Below, piece by piece: positions 2,815 to 13,930 of a DNA stretch of 64,000 nt. How positions within the stretch are numbered: position 1 is the first letter of the stretch; each line of letters begins with the position of its first letter. The notes beneath the pieces were generated by a model. The model was not told where the DNA came from. It worked only from the letters and a program-made list of their open reading frames with translations, and searched no databases. This stretch comes from Rhizorhabdus dicambivorans (GTDB taxonomy: Bacteria > Pseudomonadota > Alphaproteobacteria > Sphingomonadales > Sphingomonadaceae): contig NZ_CP023449.1 in assembly GCF_002355275.1 (NCBI RefSeq), forward strand, positions 1,838,001-1,902,000, read 5' to 3'. Made by a program: the position numbers and the translations under genes.

Positions 2815-4827
2815 ATGACCCGCCGAATCTGGATTGCCGGCATCGTCGCGCTGCTGCTGGAGGCGGCGCTGAGCGCGATGTCTGGCGAGGCGATGCGGCG
2901 GCCGCTGTTCGACTGGTGGCAGCGCGCCGCGCCGCGCGACCTGTCGGGCACCAGGGTCCATGTCGTGCTGATCGATGCCGAGAGCATCGCCGAGGTGGGG
3001 CCCTGGCCCTGGCCGCGCTATCATATGGGCCGGCTGACCGAGCAGATCGCCGCGCGCAGGCCCAGTGCGATCGGCTTCGACATGACCTTTCCGGAGCCCG
3101 ACCGGGTCCGGCCCGACCTCTTCGCCCGCCTTTATCCCGAACTCAGCCCCGAGGCTGCCGCGGAGGTGCAGGCGCTGCCGCCGATGGACAAGCTGTTCGG
3201 GCAGGTGATCGGCGGCGCCCCGGTTGTGCTGGGCCGGGCCGGTGTCGCCGATGACGGAGGCGATCCGGCGCAGTTGATCGTCGATCCGGAGATCAAGGGG
3301 AAGCTTCCGCCGCGCCTGCCCGATTATCCCAGGGCGATCGCCAACATCCCCGAACTGGAGCCCTGGGCGCTCGGCCATGGCCTGCTCAACGGCCAGCCCG
3401 ATGGAGATGGCAAGGTTCGCCGGATACCGATGCTGGTGAAGGCGGGGGGGCGTCCCATGCCCAGCCTTTCGCTGGAGCTGGCCCGTGTTGCATTGGGTGA
3501 GGAAGAGCTGAGGACCGACGCCGGCCATGTGATGGTCGGAAGGCAGCATGTCCCGGTCGATGAATCGGGCGACATGCTGCTGCGCTTCGGCCATTTCCCG
3601 TCCACCCAGATCAGCTCGGCGGTCGACCTGCTGCGGCAGGGCTTTCCAGCCGATGCCTTCGCCGGCCAGATCGTGCTGATCGGCCTGTCGGCGACCGGGA
3701 CACCCGATATCGTCGCGACGCCGCTGGAGGCGGAGGCGTTCGGGACCTTGGTGCAGGGCCAGGCGGTCGATGCGATATTGCGCGGCGGCTGGCTCGATCG
3801 GCCACGCTGGGCGGCGCCGCTGGAATGGGCGCTTGGCGCATTGCTGTCGCTGCTCATCCTGCTGCTGGCGGCGCGGCGGCGCTGGCTGCTGTTGCCGGTG
3901 GGGCTGGCGATTGCCCTGCCGATCGGCTGCTGGCTGGCCTTCGATCTTGGATCGCTGCTGATCGATCCGCTGCGGCCGCTGCTGCTCGCCGGGGCCACCG
4001 CGCTCGGCGTCGCGGCGGCGACCTTCGTCGAGGCGCGGCGCGAGCGCGAGCGGCTGCGCGGGGCGCTGGTGCAGGAGCAGATCGCCTCGGCCGCGACCGG
4101 CGCCGAACTGCAGGCGGCACGCTCGATCCAGCTCGGCATGCTGCCGCCGCGCGAGGACCTTGCCGCCTTCGACCCGCGCCTCGACATCGATGCCCTGCTG
4201 GAGCCCGCCAAGTCGATCGGCGGGGACCTTTACGACGTGATCCGGATCGATGCCGATCGCGTCGCCTTCCTGGTGGGCGACGTCACCGGCAAGGGGGTGC
4301 CGGCCGCCCTGTTCATGGCGCTGAGCAAGGCGCTGGCGAAAAGCGTGGTGCTGCGCGGCGTTCCGAGCCTCGCCGATGCCGCCTTCATCCTCAACGAGGA
4401 GCTGATGCGCGACAACAGCGAGTCGATGAACGTCACCATGCTGATCGGCATCATCGACCTGTCGAGCGGCGAGACCGTGCTGATGAGCGCGGGGCACGAG
4501 GACCCGCTGCACATCGGCAGGGACGGCGCGATCGCGATCCACAAGCTGGACGGCGGGCCTCCCTTCTGCATCGTCGACTTCCCTTATCCCGACGAGCCCA
4601 TGAAGCTGGCGCCGGGCGAGACGCTGGTGATCATCTCCGACGGGGTGAGCGAGGCGCAGAATGGCGCGGGCGCGCTGTTCGGCCATGAACGGCTGCTGGA
4701 GGCGCTCCAGGGCAAGGCCAGTGCCACCGCGATGGTCGATGCGATGCGGGATGCGGTGCGGGTCTTCGAGGAGGGCACCGATCCGACCGACGACCTGACG
4801 GTGATGGCGATCCGGTATCTGGGGTGA
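2815..4827 (+). CDS. CHASE2 sensor - SpoIIE/PP2C phosphatase
   Basis: A 670-residue inner-membrane receptor phosphatase. An N-terminal membrane segment (about residues 5-20) is followed by a periplasmic CHASE2 domain (about 30-310, with the typical VHVVLIDAESIAEVGPWPWPR start). Three hydrophobic segments follow at about 335-405, then a short linker helix and a PP2C-type SpoIIE domain (about 440-670) with metal-binding GGDLYDV, GDVTGKG, SAGHEDP and a C-terminal DDLTVMA. It should dephosphorylate the STAS protein in response to an envelope signal. The stop codon is only three bases from the stop of the convergent OmpA-like gene. The domain call is strong; the signal is unknown. Confidence 0.92.
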   Translation: MTRRIWIAGIVALLLEAALSAMSGEAMRRPLFDWWQRAAPRDLSGTRVHVVLIDAESIAEVGPWPWPRYHMGRLTEQIAARRPSAIGFDMTFPEPDRVRPDLFARLYPELSPEAAAEVQALPPMDKLFGQVIGGAPVVLGRAGVADDGGDPAQLIVDPEIKGKLPPRLPDYPRAIANIPELEPWALGHGLLNGQPDGDGKVRRIPMLVKAGGRPMPSLSLELARVALGEEELRTDAGHVMVGRQHVPVDESGDMLLRFGHFPSTQISSAVDLLRQGFPADAFAGQIVLIGLSATGTPDIVATPLEAEAFGTLVQGQAVDAILRGGWLDRPRWAAPLEWALGALLSLLILLLAARRRWLLLPVGLAIALPIGCWLAFDLGSLLIDPLRPLLLAGATALGVAAATFVEARRERERLRGALVQEQIASAATGAELQAARSIQLGMLPPREDLAAFDPRLDIDALLEPAKSIGGDLYDVIRIDADRVAFLVGDVTGKGVPAALFMALSKALAKSVVLRGVPSLADAAFILNEELMRDNSESMNVTMLIGIIDLSSGETVLMSAGHEDPLHIGRDGAIAIHKLDGGPPFCIVDFPYPDEPMKLAPGETLVIISDGVSEAQNGAGALFGHERLLEALQGKASATAMVDAMRDAVRVFEEGTDPTDDLTVMAIRYLG

Positions 4828-6319: not shown

Positions 6320-7654
6320 TCACAATATCATCTCGATGCACGCTCCGGCGTCGCTGGGCCGGATCGTGATCGTGCCGCCATGGGCGGTGACGATGCGGCG
6401 GACCAGGCTGAGGCCGACGCCGGTGCCCTTCGCCTTGGTGGTGAAGAAGGGCAGGAAGATGTCGCCCGCCTGATCGGGGGCGATGCCGGGGCCGTTGTCC
6501 GACAGCATGATCGAGCTGCGCCCGCCCGCGATCAGGCCGAGCGACAGTTTCAGGCGCGGCGCACGGCCCGCCGCGATCGCGGCTTCGGCACCGTTCTTCA
6601 GCAGGTTGAGCACCGCCTGCGCCATCAGGTCGGGATCGCCGTCGAGCACCATGTCCGCCGGAACGATCGAGATGGCCAGTTCCGCCTCCTGGCCCTCGGC
6701 GGTGGCGGCGAACAGGCGTTGCATCTCCTCCGCCCAGGGGCCCGCAGGGAAGCGCCGTGCGCGGATCGTCGGGGTGCGGATGAAGGCCCGATAGCCTTCG
6801 ACGAAATGCATGATCCCTTCGGCACGACGGGCGAGGGTGGAGACGGCAAGGCGGGCGTCGCTGATCTGGGGGGCGATGCGAGGATCGTCGGTCTCTATTT
6901 CGGCCATCAGCCCGGCGGCGCTCTGGGCGAGCGAGGCGACGGGGGTCATCGAGTTCATGATCTCATGGGTGAGCACCCGGACCAGATCGGCCTGGGCGGC
7001 GATTTCGACCGCGTCGAGTTCGCCGTGCAGCGGCTGCACGGTGAGCAGGCGCAGCGGATGGCCCAGTCGATGGATCTCGGCCCCGGTCAGCACCGCGCGC
7101 TGCGGACGTCCGTCGATCTCGATCGCGGCGATGCGGCGGCTGCTGCCTTCGAGCGCCGCGACGAAATCGGCGCCGTGGGGGGCATAGTCGGCAATCCGCA
7201 CCGCCTCGGTCCGCCCGAACAGCTTGCGCGCGGCGCGGTTGGCCAGTTCGACCCGCTCGCCATCGATCACGAGCAGCGCGACCGGCGCCTCGTCGACCAA
7301 CGCGGCGTTGAAGCGGCCCGCGTCGGCCGCCTGCGCCCGTTCCTCGCGAAGCCGCCGCATTGCGCTGTCGAGCTGCTGCCCCAATGCGTCGAAGCCGCCG
7401 CCATGGCGGTGCGAGGAGAAGCCCTGCGACAGATCGCCATGCGTCACCGCTTCGATGAAGCGCGCCAACTCGACATTGGTACGGCGGACATAGCTCCACA
7501 GCGCCCAGATCGCGATGGCGGCGATGACCGCCGCCAGCAATTTGGTGGCGACAAGGTCTGCGCGTTCGAAACTATAGACAAGCGCCCATAGAGTCAGCGC
7601 GACCGCCGTCAACCGCCAGGCCAGCCCGATCGAGAAGTGCCGGTCAAAGGCCAT
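6320..7654 (-). CDS. NtrY-like sensor histidine kinase
   Basis: A 444-residue membrane histidine kinase. Two hydrophobic segments near residues 10-50 are followed by a HAMP/PAS-like region (about 60-190), a HisKA helix with LTHEIMNSMTPVASLAQS, and an HATPase domain with LLKNGAEAA (N box), DNGPGI (G1) and KGTGVGLSLVRRI (G2). The wording of the H box is of the NtrY type. Its start overlaps the end of the sigma-54 regulator gene by 11 bases, so the two are coupled and form one two-component system. The signal is unknown; the system most likely controls the divergent ABC export operon. Confidence 0.9.
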   Translation of the reverse strand: MAFDRHFSIGLAWRLTAVALTLWALVYSFERADLVATKLLAAVIAAIAIWALWSYVRRTNVELARFIEAVTHGDLSQGFSSHRHGGGFDALGQQLDSAMRRLREERAQAADAGRFNAALVDEAPVALLVIDGERVELANRAARKLFGRTEAVRIADYAPHGADFVAALEGSSRRIAAIEIDGRPQRAVLTGAEIHRLGHPLRLLTVQPLHGELDAVEIAAQADLVRVLTHEIMNSMTPVASLAQSAAGLMAEIETDDPRIAPQISDARLAVSTLARRAEGIMHFVEGYRAFIRTPTIRARRFPAGPWAEEMQRLFAATAEGQEAELAISIVPADMVLDGDPDLMAQAVLNLLKNGAEAAIAAGRAPRLKLSLGLIAGGRSSIMLSDNGPGIAPDQAGDIFLPFFTTKAKGTGVGLSLVRRIVTAHGGTITIRPSDAGACIEMIL

Positions 7655-9029
7655 GCTTTTCCATCCGGCGATAGAGCGAGCCGCGCGTCAGCCCCAGTTC
7701 GGCGGCGGCGGCCGAGATGTTGTAGGCGTGTTTCTGCAGCGCGCGTTCGATCATCTGCTTTTCGGCGCGTTCGAGGTTGAGATCGGTCGCTGGAGCAGCA
7801 GTCGCCTGGATCTTCACCGCCGGGGCGCCGCGCGACAGCGGGAAATCGGCGAGCGCATAGGCGTCCCCCTGTGCCAGGATGACGGCGCGCTCGGCGGCGT
7901 GACGGAGTGCGCGGACGTTGCCCGGCCAGCTATAATCCTGGAGCGCGGCCAGCACGTCGCGGGGCAGTTCGCGTTCCGGCGCGCCATATTTGCGCGCGTA
8001 GAGATCGAGGAAATGGGTGAGCAGCACCGGCACGTCCTCGGGCCGTTCGCGCAACGGCGGCAGCTCTATCTCGACCGTGTTGAGCCGAAACAGCAGGTCG
8101 GGCCGGAACACCCGGTCGTCATGAAGCCGCTCGGGTGACAGGTTGGTGGCCGAGACGATGCGGACATCGATCGCGGCCGACTTGTTCGATCCGACCGGGG
8201 TCACCTGCCGCTGTTCCAGCGCGGTCAGCAGGCGCGGCTGGAGATGGAGCGGCAGGTTGCCGATCTCGTCGAGGAACAACGTGCCGCCGTCCGCCGCCTG
8301 GAGCCGGCCGATCCGGTCGGCGCGGGCGTCGGTGAAGGCGCCCTTCACATGGCCGAACAGCTCGCTGTCGATCAGGCTTTCGGCGATCGCGCCCATGTCG
8401 ACCGACACCAGCGCGTGCGCGGCGCGGCGCGAACGGCGGTGGATCTCGCGCGCCACCAGTTCCTTGCCGGTGCCGTTCTCGCCCAGGATCAGGACATTGG
8501 CCTCGGTCGGCGCCGCCCGCTCGATCAGCGAAAGGACATGGCGGATCGCGGGCGAGCGGCCTAGCAGGGGCGTCCCGCCCGCCGGGTAGGACAGGGCGGA
8601 TACCTTGGCACGCTCGACATCGGTGGCGCGGCGCGAAGCGCGCAGTCTGGCGGCGGTGGCGACGGTGGCGAGCAGCCGGTCGTTCGACCAGGGCTTGGAG
8701 ACGAAATCGGTGGCGCCGCGCTTCATCGTCTCCACCGCGATGCCGACGCCGGCATGGGCGGTGATCAGCACGACGACCGCGTCCGGATCGTCCGCCAGGA
8801 TGCGTTCGAGCCAGTGGAAGCCTTCGGCCGCGTCGGTGGCGCCGCGCGCGAAATTGGCGTCGAGCAGGATCACGTCGGGGGAGCGCGCGGCGATGGCGGC
8901 CATCGCCTCATCCGGCGAGGTGAAGCACGCGATCTCGGCGAATATGTTCTTCAGCGTCAGCCGCGCGGCGAGCAGAATGTCCTGATCGTCGTCGACGATG
9001 ATCGCCAGATCGAATGTGCTCAATGTCAT
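7644..9029 (-). CDS. NtrC-family sigma-54-dependent response regulator
   Basis: A 461-residue enhancer-binding protein. The receiver domain (1-125) has DDDQD at the acidic pocket and the phospho-acceptor Asp57 in ILLDANF. The AAA+ domain (about 165-400) shows Walker A GENGTGKE, a GAFTDA loop in place of the usual GAFTGA that contacts sigma-54, and arginine-finger segments. A Fis-type helix-turn-helix ends the protein (NISAAAAELGLTRGSLYRRM). The GAFTDA variant also occurs in intact regulators, so loss of function need not follow. A palindrome with TGTCC/GGACA arms lies 18 bases before the start codon, which suggests self-control. It should activate the sigma-54 promoter at 9267. Confidence 0.92.
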   Translation of the reverse strand: MTLSTFDLAIIVDDDQDILLAARLTLKNIFAEIACFTSPDEAMAAIAARSPDVILLDANFARGATDAAEGFHWLERILADDPDAVVVLITAHAGVGIAVETMKRGATDFVSKPWSNDRLLATVATAARLRASRRATDVERAKVSALSYPAGGTPLLGRSPAIRHVLSLIERAAPTEANVLILGENGTGKELVAREIHRRSRRAAHALVSVDMGAIAESLIDSELFGHVKGAFTDARADRIGRLQAADGGTLFLDEIGNLPLHLQPRLLTALEQRQVTPVGSNKSAAIDVRIVSATNLSPERLHDDRVFRPDLLFRLNTVEIELPPLRERPEDVPVLLTHFLDLYARKYGAPERELPRDVLAALQDYSWPGNVRALRHAAERAVILAQGDAYALADFPLSRGAPAVKIQATAAPATDLNLERAEKQMIERALQKHAYNISAAAAELGLTRGSLYRRMEKHGL

Positions 9030-9046
9030 GCTCGGTAGCTATGGAC

Positions 9047-9062
9047 TGTCCGGAATTGGACA
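9047..9062. promoter_or_regulatory. candidate enhancer site 1 for the NtrC-like regulator
   Basis: Inverted repeat TGTCC-N6-GGACA, centred about 18-33 bases upstream of the regulator gene and about 238 bases upstream of the predicted start of the ABC operon transcript. A related repeat occurs at 9199-9226. Position and symmetry suit an upstream activating sequence that may also serve self-regulation. Binding is inferred. Confidence 0.5.
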
Positions 9063-9088
9063 ATCAAGGGTCGTGCCAACCCTTAGTA

Positions 9089-9185
9089 CGTCATGCCAGC
9101 GAAGGCTGGCATCCATGTCTGTGGCCTTCTCCGATGTCATCGGATGACGGGAGAGACATGGACCCCAGCCTTCGCTGGGGTGACG
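9089..9185. repeat. 97-bp palindromic repeat, copy 1
   Basis: The unit begins CGTCA and ends TGACG, its reverse complement. It contains a stem CCAGC-GAAG-GCTGG on the left, a stem CCCCAGC-CTTC-GCTGGGG on the right and an outer CCATGTCT/AGACATGG pairing around a variable middle. Copy 2 at 11319-11415 has the same length and architecture. It is a REP/MITE-like element and lies between the two enhancer candidates. Confidence 0.85.
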
Positions 9186-9198
9186 AATGTTCGGATGC

Positions 9199-9226
9199 GG
9201 ACAGTCCGACTGTCCGAAAATGGACG
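9199..9226. promoter_or_regulatory. candidate enhancer site 2 for the NtrC-like regulator
   Basis: Three half-sites lie close together: GGACAG at 9199-9204, CTGTCC at 9210-9215 (a perfect 6-base inverted repeat with a 5-base spacer) and GGACG at 9222-9226. The last two reproduce the TGTCC-N6-GGAC spacing of site 1. The cluster is centred about 75-85 bases upstream of the predicted transcript start. Confidence 0.5.
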
Positions 9227-9266
9227 GTCGCTCAGCAGGATCGCTGGAAATCCGGTCTTCCCCACT

Positions 9267-9281
9267 TGGCACGCCGATTGC
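9267..9281 (+). promoter_or_regulatory. sigma-54 (-24/-12) promoter
   Basis: TGGCAC-N5-TTGC (TGGCACGCCGATTGC) matches the sigma-54 consensus exactly. It lies on the plus strand just before the ABC export operon and opposite an NtrC-type gene. The expected transcript start is near 9293, only two bases before the ATG at 9295. Confidence 0.88.
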
Positions 9282-9294
9282 GTAGCTCGCCGCC

Positions 9295-10605
9295 ATGAGC
9301 GTAGTCCCCATGAAGAATGAACCCGAGCCCGCGGCCCATAGCGGCGGCGCGATGGACCGGGTCATCGAGAAAAAGGGCCTGTCGCCGCGTATGAAGATCG
9401 GGGGCGGGATAGCGCTGCTGCTCGCCGCCATCCTGCTGTTCTGGTGGTTCGCGCCGCGCGGATCGAGCCAGACGGTCGAGGCGCAGCGTCTCGCCATCTC
9501 CGAGGTGAAACAGGGCACCTTCGACGATTTCCTGCCCCTGCGCGCGCGCGTCACCCCCCTGCTGACCGTCTATCTCGACGCAGTCGAAGGCGGTCGGGTC
9601 GAGAAGATCCTGGTCGAGGACGGGGCCACGGTGGTGAAGGGGCAACTGCTCGCCGAGCTTTCCAATGCGGACCTCCAGCTCTCGACGCTGGCACGCGAGA
9701 CCGAGGTGGCCGAGCAGCTCAACAATCTCCGGACCACCGAACTGGCCCTGTCGCGCACGCGCCTGGAGAATGAACGCAACATCATCCAGGCCGATCTGGA
9801 TGCGACCAAGGCCCGTCGGCAATATGAATTGCAGGCGCCGCTCGCCGCGAAGGGGTTCGTCGCGGGCAGGGTCTTCCGGGACACCTCGGACGATTATCAA
9901 TATCAGGTGAAGCGCGGCCGCGTCCTCCGCGCCGCGCAGGCCAATGACGAGCGGCTCCAGTCGAGCCAGCTGTCGCAGCTCCGTGCCACCGCCGCTTCGC
10001 TTCAGTCGGCGCTCGCCATCGCCCATGCCAATCTCGATCAGCTCAAGCTGCGCGCGCCGGTATCGGGCCAGCTCACCGCCTTCTCGATCCAGGTCGGCCA
10101 GTCGATGAGCCGGGGCGAGCGGATCGGCCAGATCGACAGCCCCGGCCGCACCAAGCTGGAGGCGGGGGTCGACGAATATTATCTCGGCCGGGTCCAGCCC
10201 GGGCAGAAGGCGACCATCGAGCTGGGCGGCAAGACCTATCGGATGAAGGTCGCCAAGATCTATCCGCAGGTGAAGAATGGCGAATTCCAGGTCGACCTGT
10301 GGTTCGTCGATCCCGAGCCGGCCGGGATGCAGCGTGGCCAGTCGCTCCAGGCGAAGCTGATCCTCGGCGATCCGAGCCCGGCGCGGCTGCTGCCCAGCGG
10401 CAGCTGGTACACCGACACCGGCGGCGCCTGGGTGTTCGTCGTCGATCCCGACGGCGACGGCGCGATCCGCCGCGCCGTCCGGCTCGGCCGCCGCAACAGC
10501 GATTATATCGAAATCCTCGACGGGCTCGATCCCGGCGAGAAGGTCATCACCTCATCCTATGCCGGCTTCCTCGACAGGACGCGGCTCGACCTCCAGCGCG
10601 ACTGA
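9295..10605 (+). CDS. HlyD/MacA-like periplasmic adaptor of ABC exporter
   Basis: A 436-residue membrane-fusion protein. One membrane segment lies at about residues 38-58, followed by a lipoyl-like half (EGGRVEKILVEDGATVVKGQ), a long coiled-coil hairpin (about 115-240), the second lipoyl half (LRAPVSGQLTAFSIQVGQ) and a beta-barrel domain. It should link an inner-membrane ABC permease to an outer-membrane channel. It is the first gene of a three-gene operon with the ATPase 11 bases downstream. No clear ribosome binding site precedes either ATG (9295 or 9310); with the predicted start at 9293, the first would give an almost leaderless mRNA. Substrate unknown. Confidence 0.88.
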   Translation: MSVVPMKNEPEPAAHSGGAMDRVIEKKGLSPRMKIGGGIALLLAAILLFWWFAPRGSSQTVEAQRLAISEVKQGTFDDFLPLRARVTPLLTVYLDAVEGGRVEKILVEDGATVVKGQLLAELSNADLQLSTLARETEVAEQLNNLRTTELALSRTRLENERNIIQADLDATKARRQYELQAPLAAKGFVAGRVFRDTSDDYQYQVKRGRVLRAAQANDERLQSSQLSQLRATAASLQSALAIAHANLDQLKLRAPVSGQLTAFSIQVGQSMSRGERIGQIDSPGRTKLEAGVDEYYLGRVQPGQKATIELGGKTYRMKVAKIYPQVKNGEFQVDLWFVDPEPAGMQRGQSLQAKLILGDPSPARLLPSGSWYTDTGGAWVFVVDPDGDGAIRRAVRLGRRNSDYIEILDGLDPGEKVITSSYAGFLDRTRLDLQRD

Positions 10606-10616
10606 AAGGACATCTT

Positions 10617-11297
<681 letters not shown>

Positions 11298-11318
11298 GGG
11301 CAAGCAGAACATAAGAGC

Positions 11319-11415
11319 CGTCATTCCTGCGAAGGCAGGAATCCATGTCTCTCCCGGCATCAGATGCCATCGCGAGCGGAGACAGACATGGACCCCAGCC
11401 TCCGCTGGGGTGACG
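11319..11415. repeat. 97-bp palindromic repeat, copy 2
   Basis: Same length and architecture as the copy at 9089-9185: CGTCA/TGACG ends, stem TTCCTGC-GAAG-GCAGGAA on the left, CCCCAGC-CTCC-GCTGGGG on the right, CCATGTCT/AGACATGG in between. The central 30-40 bases differ. It lies between the ATPase and permease genes and could affect the ratio of the two products by forming a hairpin in the mRNA. Confidence 0.85.
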
Positions 11416-11434
11416 AAAATGGAAGGGCAGGGAT

Positions 11435-13930
11435 ATGTGGCGCAATTATCTGACGGTCGGCATCCGGGCGCTGGCGAAGAACAAGGTCTATGCCTTCATC
11501 AACATCTTCGGCCTCGCCATCGGCATGGCGGCCTGCCTGCTGATCCTGCTCTTCGTCCGCTACGAGATGAATTACGATCGCTGGCTTCCGAACAGTGAGA
11601 ATATCTACCAGCTGCAGAGTTGGTATCACTGGCGCGATACGGGGGAGGATCAGCGTCTCCAGCTGACGACCTACACATCGGCGGCCGCGATCCGGAAGGA
11701 TTTCCCGCAGGTCGCCAACGCTGCCTATCTGTTCACCAACAACCCCGTGTTCGTGAAGGAGGGCCAGACCTCCTACACTGAGAATTATTGGTTCACCGAT
11801 GGCGATTTCCTGGACATCGTGCCTTTTCCGGTGGTGCGCGGCGCGCGCCGGCTCACCGCAAATGGCCAAGCCTTCATCACGCAAGCCGAAGCCGTGAAGC
11901 GCTACGGGGCCGAGGATGTGGTCGGCAAGACAATGTCGGTGATCACCCGGGGCAAGCATGTCGATTATCGGATTGTCGGCGTATTGAAGGATATTCCGAA
12001 GTCTTCGCACTTCAAGGTCAACGCTTTGATCCGCATGGACATCCCCGCTTATTGGGGGCCGGAAGGGCGGCAACAGCTTACCTGCTGGGGCTGCCAGAAC
12101 GGGTTCGTCTATCTGCGGCTGAAACCCGGCTCCGACGTGAAGGCGATGGAGGCGATGCTCCCGGCCTGGGAGAAGCGCAACATTCCCGATGTTATGCAGG
12201 GTGACTTGCGCACCAACCAGGGGGACGAGCAGGACTGGCATTTTGTCAACGTCAGGGACGTTCATCTCGGCGCCGGGCAGGATGGCGCGATGACCCCGGG
12301 CAACGATCGCCGGACGATTGCCACCTTCGCGATCATCGCGCTGCTGATCCTGGGCATGGCGGTGGTCAACTTCACCAACCTCGCCACCGCCCGGGCCAGC
12401 CAGCGCGCGCGTGAAGTGGCGCTGCGCAAGGTGCTGGGCGCCAACCGCCGCCAGCTGATCGTCCAGTTTATCGGGGAATCGCTGTTGATCGCGGCGCTCG
12501 CGATGTTGATCGCGCTGGCCATGGTCGAACTTTCGATGCCGTTCCTCGCCAATTTCCTGAACGCCGATCTGGCGGTCGTCTATCTGGGCAGCGGAGGTAT
12601 AGCGCTGCCTGTGATCGCGCTGGTGCTGGTCGTCGGCGTACTGGGTGGCCTCTATCCGGCCTTCTTCCTGTCGCGCTTCCAGCCTGCCACGGTGCTCAAG
12701 GCCAACAAGTCCTCGGCTGAGACCTCCGGATCGGGCCGGCTGCGCAACGTGCTGGTCGTCGGCCAGTTCGCGGTGTCGATCGGGCTGATCATCTGTACTG
12801 CTGTCGTCTATCTTCAGACTGTTTACGCCCGCACCGTCGATCCGGGTTTCAAGCGCGAGAATATCGTTCAGATGGAGGGGCTCTCCCGTGCTCAGTTGAT
12901 CGATAAGGGCGACATGATCGTCGAGCAGATGAAGCGCGTTCCCGGCATCGAGGCGGTGGGAAGGAGCGGCATCGGCGTGGGCACCGACAACAACAGCAGC
13001 AATGGCTGGAACCTGCCCGGCCGATCGGAGCCGGTCTCGATCGACAGCTATAATGTCGACCGCGGCTTCCTGGAGGCGATGGGGCTGAAGCTGGTCGCTG
13101 GTCGCTGGTTCGACGATCGCGCGATGGACGATTCCACCATCCCCTATGGCGATGACGGGACGGCGGAGACCGCACTGGCCCGGCGCGGCGTCAATGTCGT
13201 GATCAACCAGCTGGCGGCGAAGCGCCTCGGCTTTGCTGACCCGGCGCAGGCGATCGGCAAGACCTTCAAGGCAAGCCTCGTCCAGAGCGAATATGGGCTG
13301 GTGCCGACGACGATCGTCGGTGTGGTCGCCGATGCGCGCTTCCGCTCGGTCCGCCTGCCGCTCGATCCGATCGCGTTCCAGAACGCGCATCAGGGCCACC
13401 AATTCCTGGTCGTCCGCTACCACGGCAATCCGGCCGACATGCGCGGCAGGCTGGAGCGGGCGTGGCGCGGCATCACCAGCGACGTGCCTTTCGACGCCAA
13501 GCTGAGCGAGGACGTGATCCAGGAACTCTACGAGGCCGACGACGCGCGGGCGAAAACCTTCGCGGGCTTCGCGATCCTGTCGATCATCGTCGGCTGCCTC
13601 GGCCTGTTCGGTCTCGCCGCGTTCACCGCCGAACGTCGCACGAAGGAGATCGGCATCCGCAAGGTACTGGGCGCCCGTACGCCGGATATCGTCCGGCTGC
13701 TCGTCTGGCAGTTCAGCCGTCCGGTGCTCGTCGCGAACCTGATCGCCTGGCCGATTGCCTGGTGGGTGATGCGCGACTGGCTGAACAGCTTCGATACCCG
13801 CATCGCGCTGGGGCCGACGCCCTTCCTGGCCGCCGGCCTGCTGGCCCTGGTCATCGCGATCGGCACGATCGGTGCGCATGCCTTCCGGGTGGCGCGGGCG
13901 AACCCGATCCATGCGCTGCGCTATGAATGA
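11435..13930 (+). CDS. MacB/FtsX-type ABC transporter permease
   Basis: An 831-residue inner-membrane permease with two FtsX-like modules. The first membrane segment lies at about residues 20-45 and is followed by a periplasmic MacB_PCD domain. The first FtsX core (about 285-400) contains REVALRKVLGA. A second membrane segment and periplasmic domain start near residue 430, and the second FtsX core (about 700-831) carries KEIGIRKVLGA. The duplicated form is common beside NtrC-type two-component systems in Gram-negative bacteria. The ATG follows AAGGGCAGGG. A 97-bp repeat separates it from the ATPase gene, but no promoter was recognised there, so it is probably in the same operon. Confidence 0.9.
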   Translation: MWRNYLTVGIRALAKNKVYAFINIFGLAIGMAACLLILLFVRYEMNYDRWLPNSENIYQLQSWYHWRDTGEDQRLQLTTYTSAAAIRKDFPQVANAAYLFTNNPVFVKEGQTSYTENYWFTDGDFLDIVPFPVVRGARRLTANGQAFITQAEAVKRYGAEDVVGKTMSVITRGKHVDYRIVGVLKDIPKSSHFKVNALIRMDIPAYWGPEGRQQLTCWGCQNGFVYLRLKPGSDVKAMEAMLPAWEKRNIPDVMQGDLRTNQGDEQDWHFVNVRDVHLGAGQDGAMTPGNDRRTIATFAIIALLILGMAVVNFTNLATARASQRAREVALRKVLGANRRQLIVQFIGESLLIAALAMLIALAMVELSMPFLANFLNADLAVVYLGSGGIALPVIALVLVVGVLGGLYPAFFLSRFQPATVLKANKSSAETSGSGRLRNVLVVGQFAVSIGLIICTAVVYLQTVYARTVDPGFKRENIVQMEGLSRAQLIDKGDMIVEQMKRVPGIEAVGRSGIGVGTDNNSSNGWNLPGRSEPVSIDSYNVDRGFLEAMGLKLVAGRWFDDRAMDDSTIPYGDDGTAETALARRGVNVVINQLAAKRLGFADPAQAIGKTFKASLVQSEYGLVPTTIVGVVADARFRSVRLPLDPIAFQNAHQGHQFLVVRYHGNPADMRGRLERAWRGITSDVPFDAKLSEDVIQELYEADDARAKTFAGFAILSIIVGCLGLFGLAAFTAERRTKEIGIRKVLGARTPDIVRLLVWQFSRPVLVANLIAWPIAWWVMRDWLNSFDTRIALGPTPFLAAGLLALVIAIGTIGAHAFRVARANPIHALRYE

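Follow-up and report, generated by a model that had tools for sequence, protein, structure and literature searches.

Two operons that diverge from one short control region in Rhizorhabdus dicambivorans raise the question of how an NtrC-type regulator and an ABC exporter are controlled together, and of what a 97-bp palindromic repeat between them does to that control. The window analysed here is a stretch of 64,000 nucleotides (contig NZ_CP023449.1), in which the control region (9030-9294) has a regulator-kinase pair on the minus strand to its left and an adaptor-ATPase-permease operon (9295-13930) on the plus strand to its right. The regulator gene (7644-9029, minus strand) encodes an NtrC-family response regulator with the receiver, AAA+ sigma-54 domain and Fis-type helix-turn-helix of an NtrC-type bacterial enhancer-binding protein (Pfam Response_reg, Sigma54_activat and HTH_8). 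The histidine kinase gene (6320-7654, minus strand; HATPase_c, PAS_8) overlaps the end of the regulator gene, and the two probably form one operon. On the plus strand follow the genes for a periplasmic adaptor (9295-10605; HlyD_3), an ABC ATPase (10617-11297; ABC_tran) and a MacB/FtsX-type duplicated permease (11435-13930; MacB_PCD, FtsX). Both the domains and the strands thus bear out the sequence-only reading of this DNA, made without database searches, which had placed an ABC export operon opposite an NtrC-type gene.

More specific names for these proteins were tried and rejected. The label of PEP-CTERM response regulator PrsR (TIGR02915) gives the regulator a score of 344.8, below the curated 502.6, and the darobactin exporter label fails for all three components, with DarC, DarD and DarB scores of 189.8, 266.8 and 74.8 against curated values of 450, 375 and 700. 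The best NCBIfam matches are DarC for the adaptor, DarD for the ATPase and the ADOP duplicated-permease family for the permease, each under its curated cut-off. A search of 8800-11600 detected no Rfam family at its gathering score, and a simple consensus search of 8950-9350 detected no sigma-70-like promoter. The gene for rpoN is present in the source genome (G000:C1:492893-493369) and in 146 of the 148 genomes searched, the source genome included. The loop motif of the regulator reads GAFTDA (8325-8342, minus strand), and the D at this position is found in 130 of the 133 orthologues read, the other three having GAFTGA (one further locus was left out). Across the regulator clade, GAFTDA or GSFTDA replaces GAFTGA almost throughout. 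For Desulfovibrio, PMC4641369 counts GAFTDA among the loop variants that are expected to be active still.

The export operon is preceded by an exact sigma-54 promoter, TGGCAC-GCCGA-TTGC (9267-9281, plus strand), as had been read from the letters alone; it matches the consensus at 10 of 10 positions, with the GG and the GC correctly spaced, and predicts a +1 at 9293. The exact pattern alone is weak evidence against chance, with 10 matches in the 5.54-Mb genome compared to 4 for the backwards pattern. Another exact match in the window, at 4712-4726 on the minus strand, falls within the end of the gene at 2815-4827 and is probably due to chance.

Comparison with relatives is far more informative for the promoter at 9267. 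We searched for the regulator in 148 genomes, the source genome counted, and then in 397 genomes of the family; with close orthologues defined by an E-value of up to 1e-120, 61 were found, from 25 of the 96 genera of the family. The upstream regions of all 61 family loci and of 33 order-level loci were read (a few further order loci were left out) and compared with 20 sets of first-order Markov shuffles; the orthologues come from related genomes, hence their counts are not independent. A forward sigma-54 promoter scoring 9 or 10 of 10 is present in 58 of the 61 family loci and in 32 of the 33 order loci, compared to 0.65 and 0.45 loci in the shuffles. A full score of 10 is reached in 20 of the 61 family loci, and all 68 forward TGGCAC sites have C at -12.

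The second component of the control region is a set of TGTCC/GGACA palindromes. The sequence-only reading described two TGTCC/GGAC repeats flanking the 97-bp element; palindromes do flank it, but there are three of them, namely, site 1 (TGTCCGGAATTGGACA, 9047-9062) on the left, and site 2 (TGTTCGGATGCGGACA, 9188-9203) and site 3 (TGTCCGAAAATGGACG, 9211-9226) on the right, the last two forming a tandem pair with a spacing of 23 bp. The strict palindrome TGTYCGNNNNYGGACA has two matches genome-wide, both in the control region, and site 3 misses the strict form. When one mismatch is allowed, TGTCCGNNNNCGGACA occurs at 18 places in the genome and its reversed control at 23, which makes the motif background outside the control region.

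What decides that the palindromes are not a chance occurrence is their conservation across the order. At least two palindromes with no more than one mismatch are found in 54 of the 61 family loci and in 32 of the 33 order loci, and the TGTCC repeats on which the sequence-only reading relied are accordingly conserved in relatives. Perfect matches to TGTYC-N6-GDACA number 109 in the family and 64 in the order, compared to 0.05 per shuffle set, and neighbouring palindromes in the loci of relatives are mostly spaced by 20-24 bp. One family locus (L157, in G329) contains none of these motifs in its upstream region. We also read the regulator upstream regions of 80 named loci, 79 of which had sufficient upstream DNA: a perfect palindrome is present in 31 of these (two in 11 of them) and absent from 48, with 0.15 expected, and at least 17 of the 31 palindrome-bearing loci lie outside Alphaproteobacteria, mostly in Bacteroidota.

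Given that the palindrome accompanies the regulator gene across phyla, it is most likely the operator of the adjacent regulator. The alternative, that these palindromes bind some other regulator, is hard to reconcile with this association and with the observation that, in the source genome, the strict form occurs at this locus only; we consider it very improbable. In one relative (G429), tandem palindromes 20-21 bp apart occur at other places too (C32:2353-2388, C46:22847-22883 and C118:104509-104545), which suggests a wider regulon there. Many family loci, L018, L047 and L158 among them, contain one more sigma-54 promoter between the regulator and adaptor genes, together with palindromes that belong to it and a short ORF, an arrangement that is absent from the window. 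Three of the four such ORFs tested match the UrcA family (TIGR04433), whereas the fourth, which encodes a short hydrophobic peptide, is unmatched; a Pfam search with the four yielded no match.

Sites 2 and 3 are centred at about -98 and -75 from the predicted export +1, that is, inside the range of about 70-150 bp upstream that PMC3844500 gives for many enhancers. The distance from site 3 to the promoter amounts to 56 bp here, compared to 69 bp in G005 and G010, two relatives from the same genus, and 55-57 bp in several others.

The adaptor gene follows the promoter closely. A start at an internal MDRV codon (around 9352) was rejected given that many relatives show an upstream M-[ST]-[VI] start, as at 9295, and this common start sets the predicted export leader at 2 nt. 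Adaptor starts in relatives were chosen by pattern, and several loci yielded no result; within these bounds, the predicted leader is 1-2 nt here (9267-9297) and likewise in seven other loci (G005, G010, G083, G209, G069, G181 and G384), compared to 12-19 nt in ten other relatives and 6 nt in one. With a predicted leader this short, the export mRNA may be leaderless.

Facing the regulator gene, there is a further element that the sequence-only reading missed, TGGCAC-GACCC-TTGA (TGGCACGACCCTTGA, 9078-9064, minus strand). Its predicted +1 at 9052 leaves a leader of 23 nt to the regulator ATG at 9029, and site 1 covers this predicted start, where it would span -10 to +6. The TGGCAC hexamer is intact, but -12 reads TTGA in place of the GC-bearing form, for which reason we refer to the element as sigma-54-like.

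Reverse-strand TGGCAC-N5-TTGN is found in 28 of the 61 family loci, from 12 genera (0.1 loci in the shuffles), and in none of the 33 order loci; the base at -12 is A in 24 of the 28, T in four and C in none. Among all 29 reverse TGGCAC sites, there are 24 with TTGA, four with TTGT and one with TTCC. Exactly 17 bp from the element, 19 of the 28 loci have a palindrome-like stretch (up to 3 mismatches of 10), and in the other nine no palindrome adjoins it. Without any filter, the best reverse-strand score is 9/10 in 32 of the 61 family loci, 10/10 in none and below 9 in 29, with a score of 9 in 7 of 1,220 shuffles; of the four extra loci at 9/10, one has TTCC, and three (L154, L159 and L161) keep TTGC and have an altered -24 hexamer. 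The element is absent (best score of 8/10 or less) from all 33 order-level loci and from G005 and G010, and therefore is lineage-specific. Together, the scores and the bases at -12 indicate that it is repeatedly one step off the consensus, mostly at -12. In 14 genomes, TTGGCACG-N4-TTGA has 15 matches, compared to 4 for the reversed control, and the TTGC form has 24, compared to 3, so that the TTGA form is modestly above its control.

From this pattern, we infer that the divergent element is an attenuated autoregulatory promoter. It could instead be a non-productive site of sigma-54 holoenzyme binding or a relic that is no promoter at all, a serious contender to which we give somewhat less than even odds. 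The missing C at -12 in 28 of 28 loci would fit such a site, and so would its absence from the order-level loci and from the two same-genus relatives; however, the element is conserved in 12 genera, where its distance to a palindrome is often fixed, the leader that it would give the regulator gene here is of sensible length, and glnB, a different gene, has the same TTGA variant in 11 of 30 loci.

In alphaproteobacteria, glnB is classically under sigma-54/NtrC control. The 30 glnB loci, obtained from a GlnB protein search (promoter loci L244:1485-1500, that is, G000:C1:2285484-2285499, and L250-L279), score 9/10 upstream of the gene in 20 cases, 10/10 in none and 8 or less in 10; eight of these 10 belong to the 14 same-genus genomes. 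Apart from the 11 with TTGA, the nine-of-ten elements comprise two with TTGT, one with TTGG and six that deviate elsewhere than at -12. A canonical TTGC form directly precedes the P-II paralogues of G000, G005 and G010. The glnB counts and those of the TTGA and TTGC forms in 14 genomes are drawn from related genomes and hence are not independent. Thus, glnB, a separate gene, shows a pattern related to that of the divergent element. We tentatively suggest, with appreciably more doubt than conviction, that Sphingomonadaceae possess attenuated sigma-54 promoters as a class, which serve regulatory genes and have been selected to stand one base off the consensus, usually with TTGA at -12, and that the target operons keep the C; in the present locus, an operator over such a start would make a self-limiting switch in the 250-bp region shared with the exporter.

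The 97-bp palindromic element recognised in the sequence-only reading (9089-9185) is a multicopy repeat: with up to one mismatch, the unit pattern has 139 matches in the source genome, 22 in G005 and 14 in G010, and the reversed controls have none. It starts with CGTC at 9089, ends with GACG at 9185, and contains two 8-bp stems with 4-nt loops (arms 9093-9100/9105-9112 and 9162-9169/9174-9181), which is the plan that PMC3733652 describes for CGTC-1 REP elements: a CGTC tag, an 8-bp stem, a 4-nt loop and head-to-head dimers. We classify it on this basis as a CGTC-tagged REP head-to-head dimer. Across 20 other copies, the tag is exact at both ends in 16 and altered by one base at one end in three, and the remaining copy lacks one end; the 10 of these copies in which both units are strict are 96 or 97 bp long, and the copies have clear edges and apparently unrelated flanks. 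As single-stranded DNA, the repeat has a folding energy of -39.6 kcal/mol (z -9.4), which none of 200 shuffles equals.

The repeat lies upstream of both predicted starts and so would be in neither transcript. A second CGTC dimer (11319-11415), between the ATPase and permease genes inside the export operon, would be transcribed with that operon. We do not claim that the position of the 97-bp copy is unusual: a rough gene caller, which misjudged the second copy in the export operon, placed 6 of 38 other copies between divergent genes as well.

In the comparison of relatives with and without the repeat that the sequence-only reading had proposed, the control regions of G005 and G010 lack the dimer; no pre-insertion allele close enough for spacer alignment was found among the relatives, and the spacer outside the motifs is unalignable. 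Accordingly, it is from the copy number and from the absence of the repeat in two same-genus relatives having the locus that we infer its insertion into the control region.

The sequence-only reading further suggested that the repeat may have split a two-site export enhancer and displaced one half of it. The distance between sites 1 and 2, which is 141 bp here and 32 bp in G005 and G010, is in line with such an event, but a complete tandem pair, sites 2 and 3, still stands at the export promoter as it does in relatives without the repeat. The spacing between sites 1 and 2 also varies where there is no repeat (92 bp in G209 and 122 bp in G061), and, in the 19 loci noted above, a palindrome-like site adjoins the divergent element. 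We consider this split improbable; what the repeat separates is the pair of sites 2 and 3 from site 1, itself located on the predicted divergent start. With sites 2 and 3 still at -98 and -75, the export promoter is probably unaffected by the repeat.

On the divergent side, the dimer would have shifted sites 2 and 3 by 97 bp from the divergent promoter, from about -47 and -70 to about -144 and -167. A rival reading is that the dimer is functional, either as a spacer or hairpin by which the looping from sites 2/3 to the divergent promoter is tuned, or as an insulator between the operons. By raw count, CGTC dimers of differing sequence are present in the control regions of three of the 61 family loci (the source genome, G083 and G429) and in none of the 33 order loci. 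This count would fit a function, and so would the dimer of G083, which occupies the same interval between sites 1 and 2, has a different sequence and is missing from the genus-mate G209; the strong fold of the DNA, and the shift set beside the distance of about 70-150 bp upstream given for many enhancers in PMC3844500, point the same way. However, the element is abundant elsewhere in the genome, the three dimers have only the tag-and-stem plan in common, the copy in G429 lies in a different interval, between the palindromes and the promoter, and the same-genus G005 and G010 manage without a dimer. On balance, a functional dimer appears unlikely.

We favour, with a probability of roughly 0.65, the reading that one two-component system runs both divergent operons from the common control region, which includes an off-consensus autoregulatory promoter, and that the REP dimer is a later passenger. 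Under this sequence-based model, the kinase would activate the regulator, which would bind the ACTGTCCG-N4-CGGACAGT-like palindromes; the tandem sites 2 and 3 would serve as the enhancer of the exact export sigma-54 promoter, and the off-consensus one, with TTGA at -12, would serve the regulator-kinase operon. From sites 2 and 3, the regulator would probably activate its own operon weakly, and it would end this activation once site 1 fills, the position of site 1 over the divergent start being the reason why such self-limitation is probable. The dimer would then have landed in the spacer with the geometry of the export promoter unchanged, and enhancers that act at a distance would tolerate the shift on the divergent side.

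If this reading holds, the palindrome is a candidate operator, shared across phyla, of a regulator clade whose operator is described nowhere in the literature searched, and the regulon of the clade would become readable from sequence. The locus also documents three lineages with REP dimers in the same sigma-54 control region, and it opens a way to test whether selection, as opposed to decay, has set the non-consensus -12 of sigma-54 promoters that are weak and self-limiting.

The repeat class, sigma-54 enhancers and autoregulation by activators are all already known. As far as our searches reach, the new aspects are the putative operator that this regulator clade would share across phyla and a sigma-54-like promoter that is conserved, lies next to its own operator and deviates from the consensus at -12; the open-access literature yielded no paper on the palindrome operator or on the TTGA variant. 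The dimer resembles the CGTC-1 REP dimers of PMC3733652 in the tag, 8-bp stem, 4-nt loop, head-to-head arrangement and high copy number; it differs in that sphingomonads are not mentioned in the main text of that paper and in that the 9089-9185 copy lies between two divergent promoter elements. The control region is similar to the sigma-54 enhancer/promoter regions with sites for enhancer-binding proteins in PMC7057263 and PMC3844500, with a -24/-12 promoter, palindromes about 75-98 bp upstream and an AAA+ activator, whereas the regulator here has GAFTDA, and a further promoter-like element, in which -12 reads TTGA, points the other way. The export operon shares the adaptor, ATPase and FtsX-type permease with the darobactin exporter DarBCD and MacAB-type exporters, but all its scores are under the curated cut-offs for DarBCD. 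Comparable to the proposed mechanism is PspF/psp, an autoregulated sigma-54 system in which PspF uses a sigma-70 promoter. ZraSR is another autoregulated sigma-54 system, according to PMC12316311. In both, the activator controls its own operon from the same region, as we suggest here; in the present locus, by contrast, it is within the candidate operator that a sigma-54-like promoter has its predicted start.
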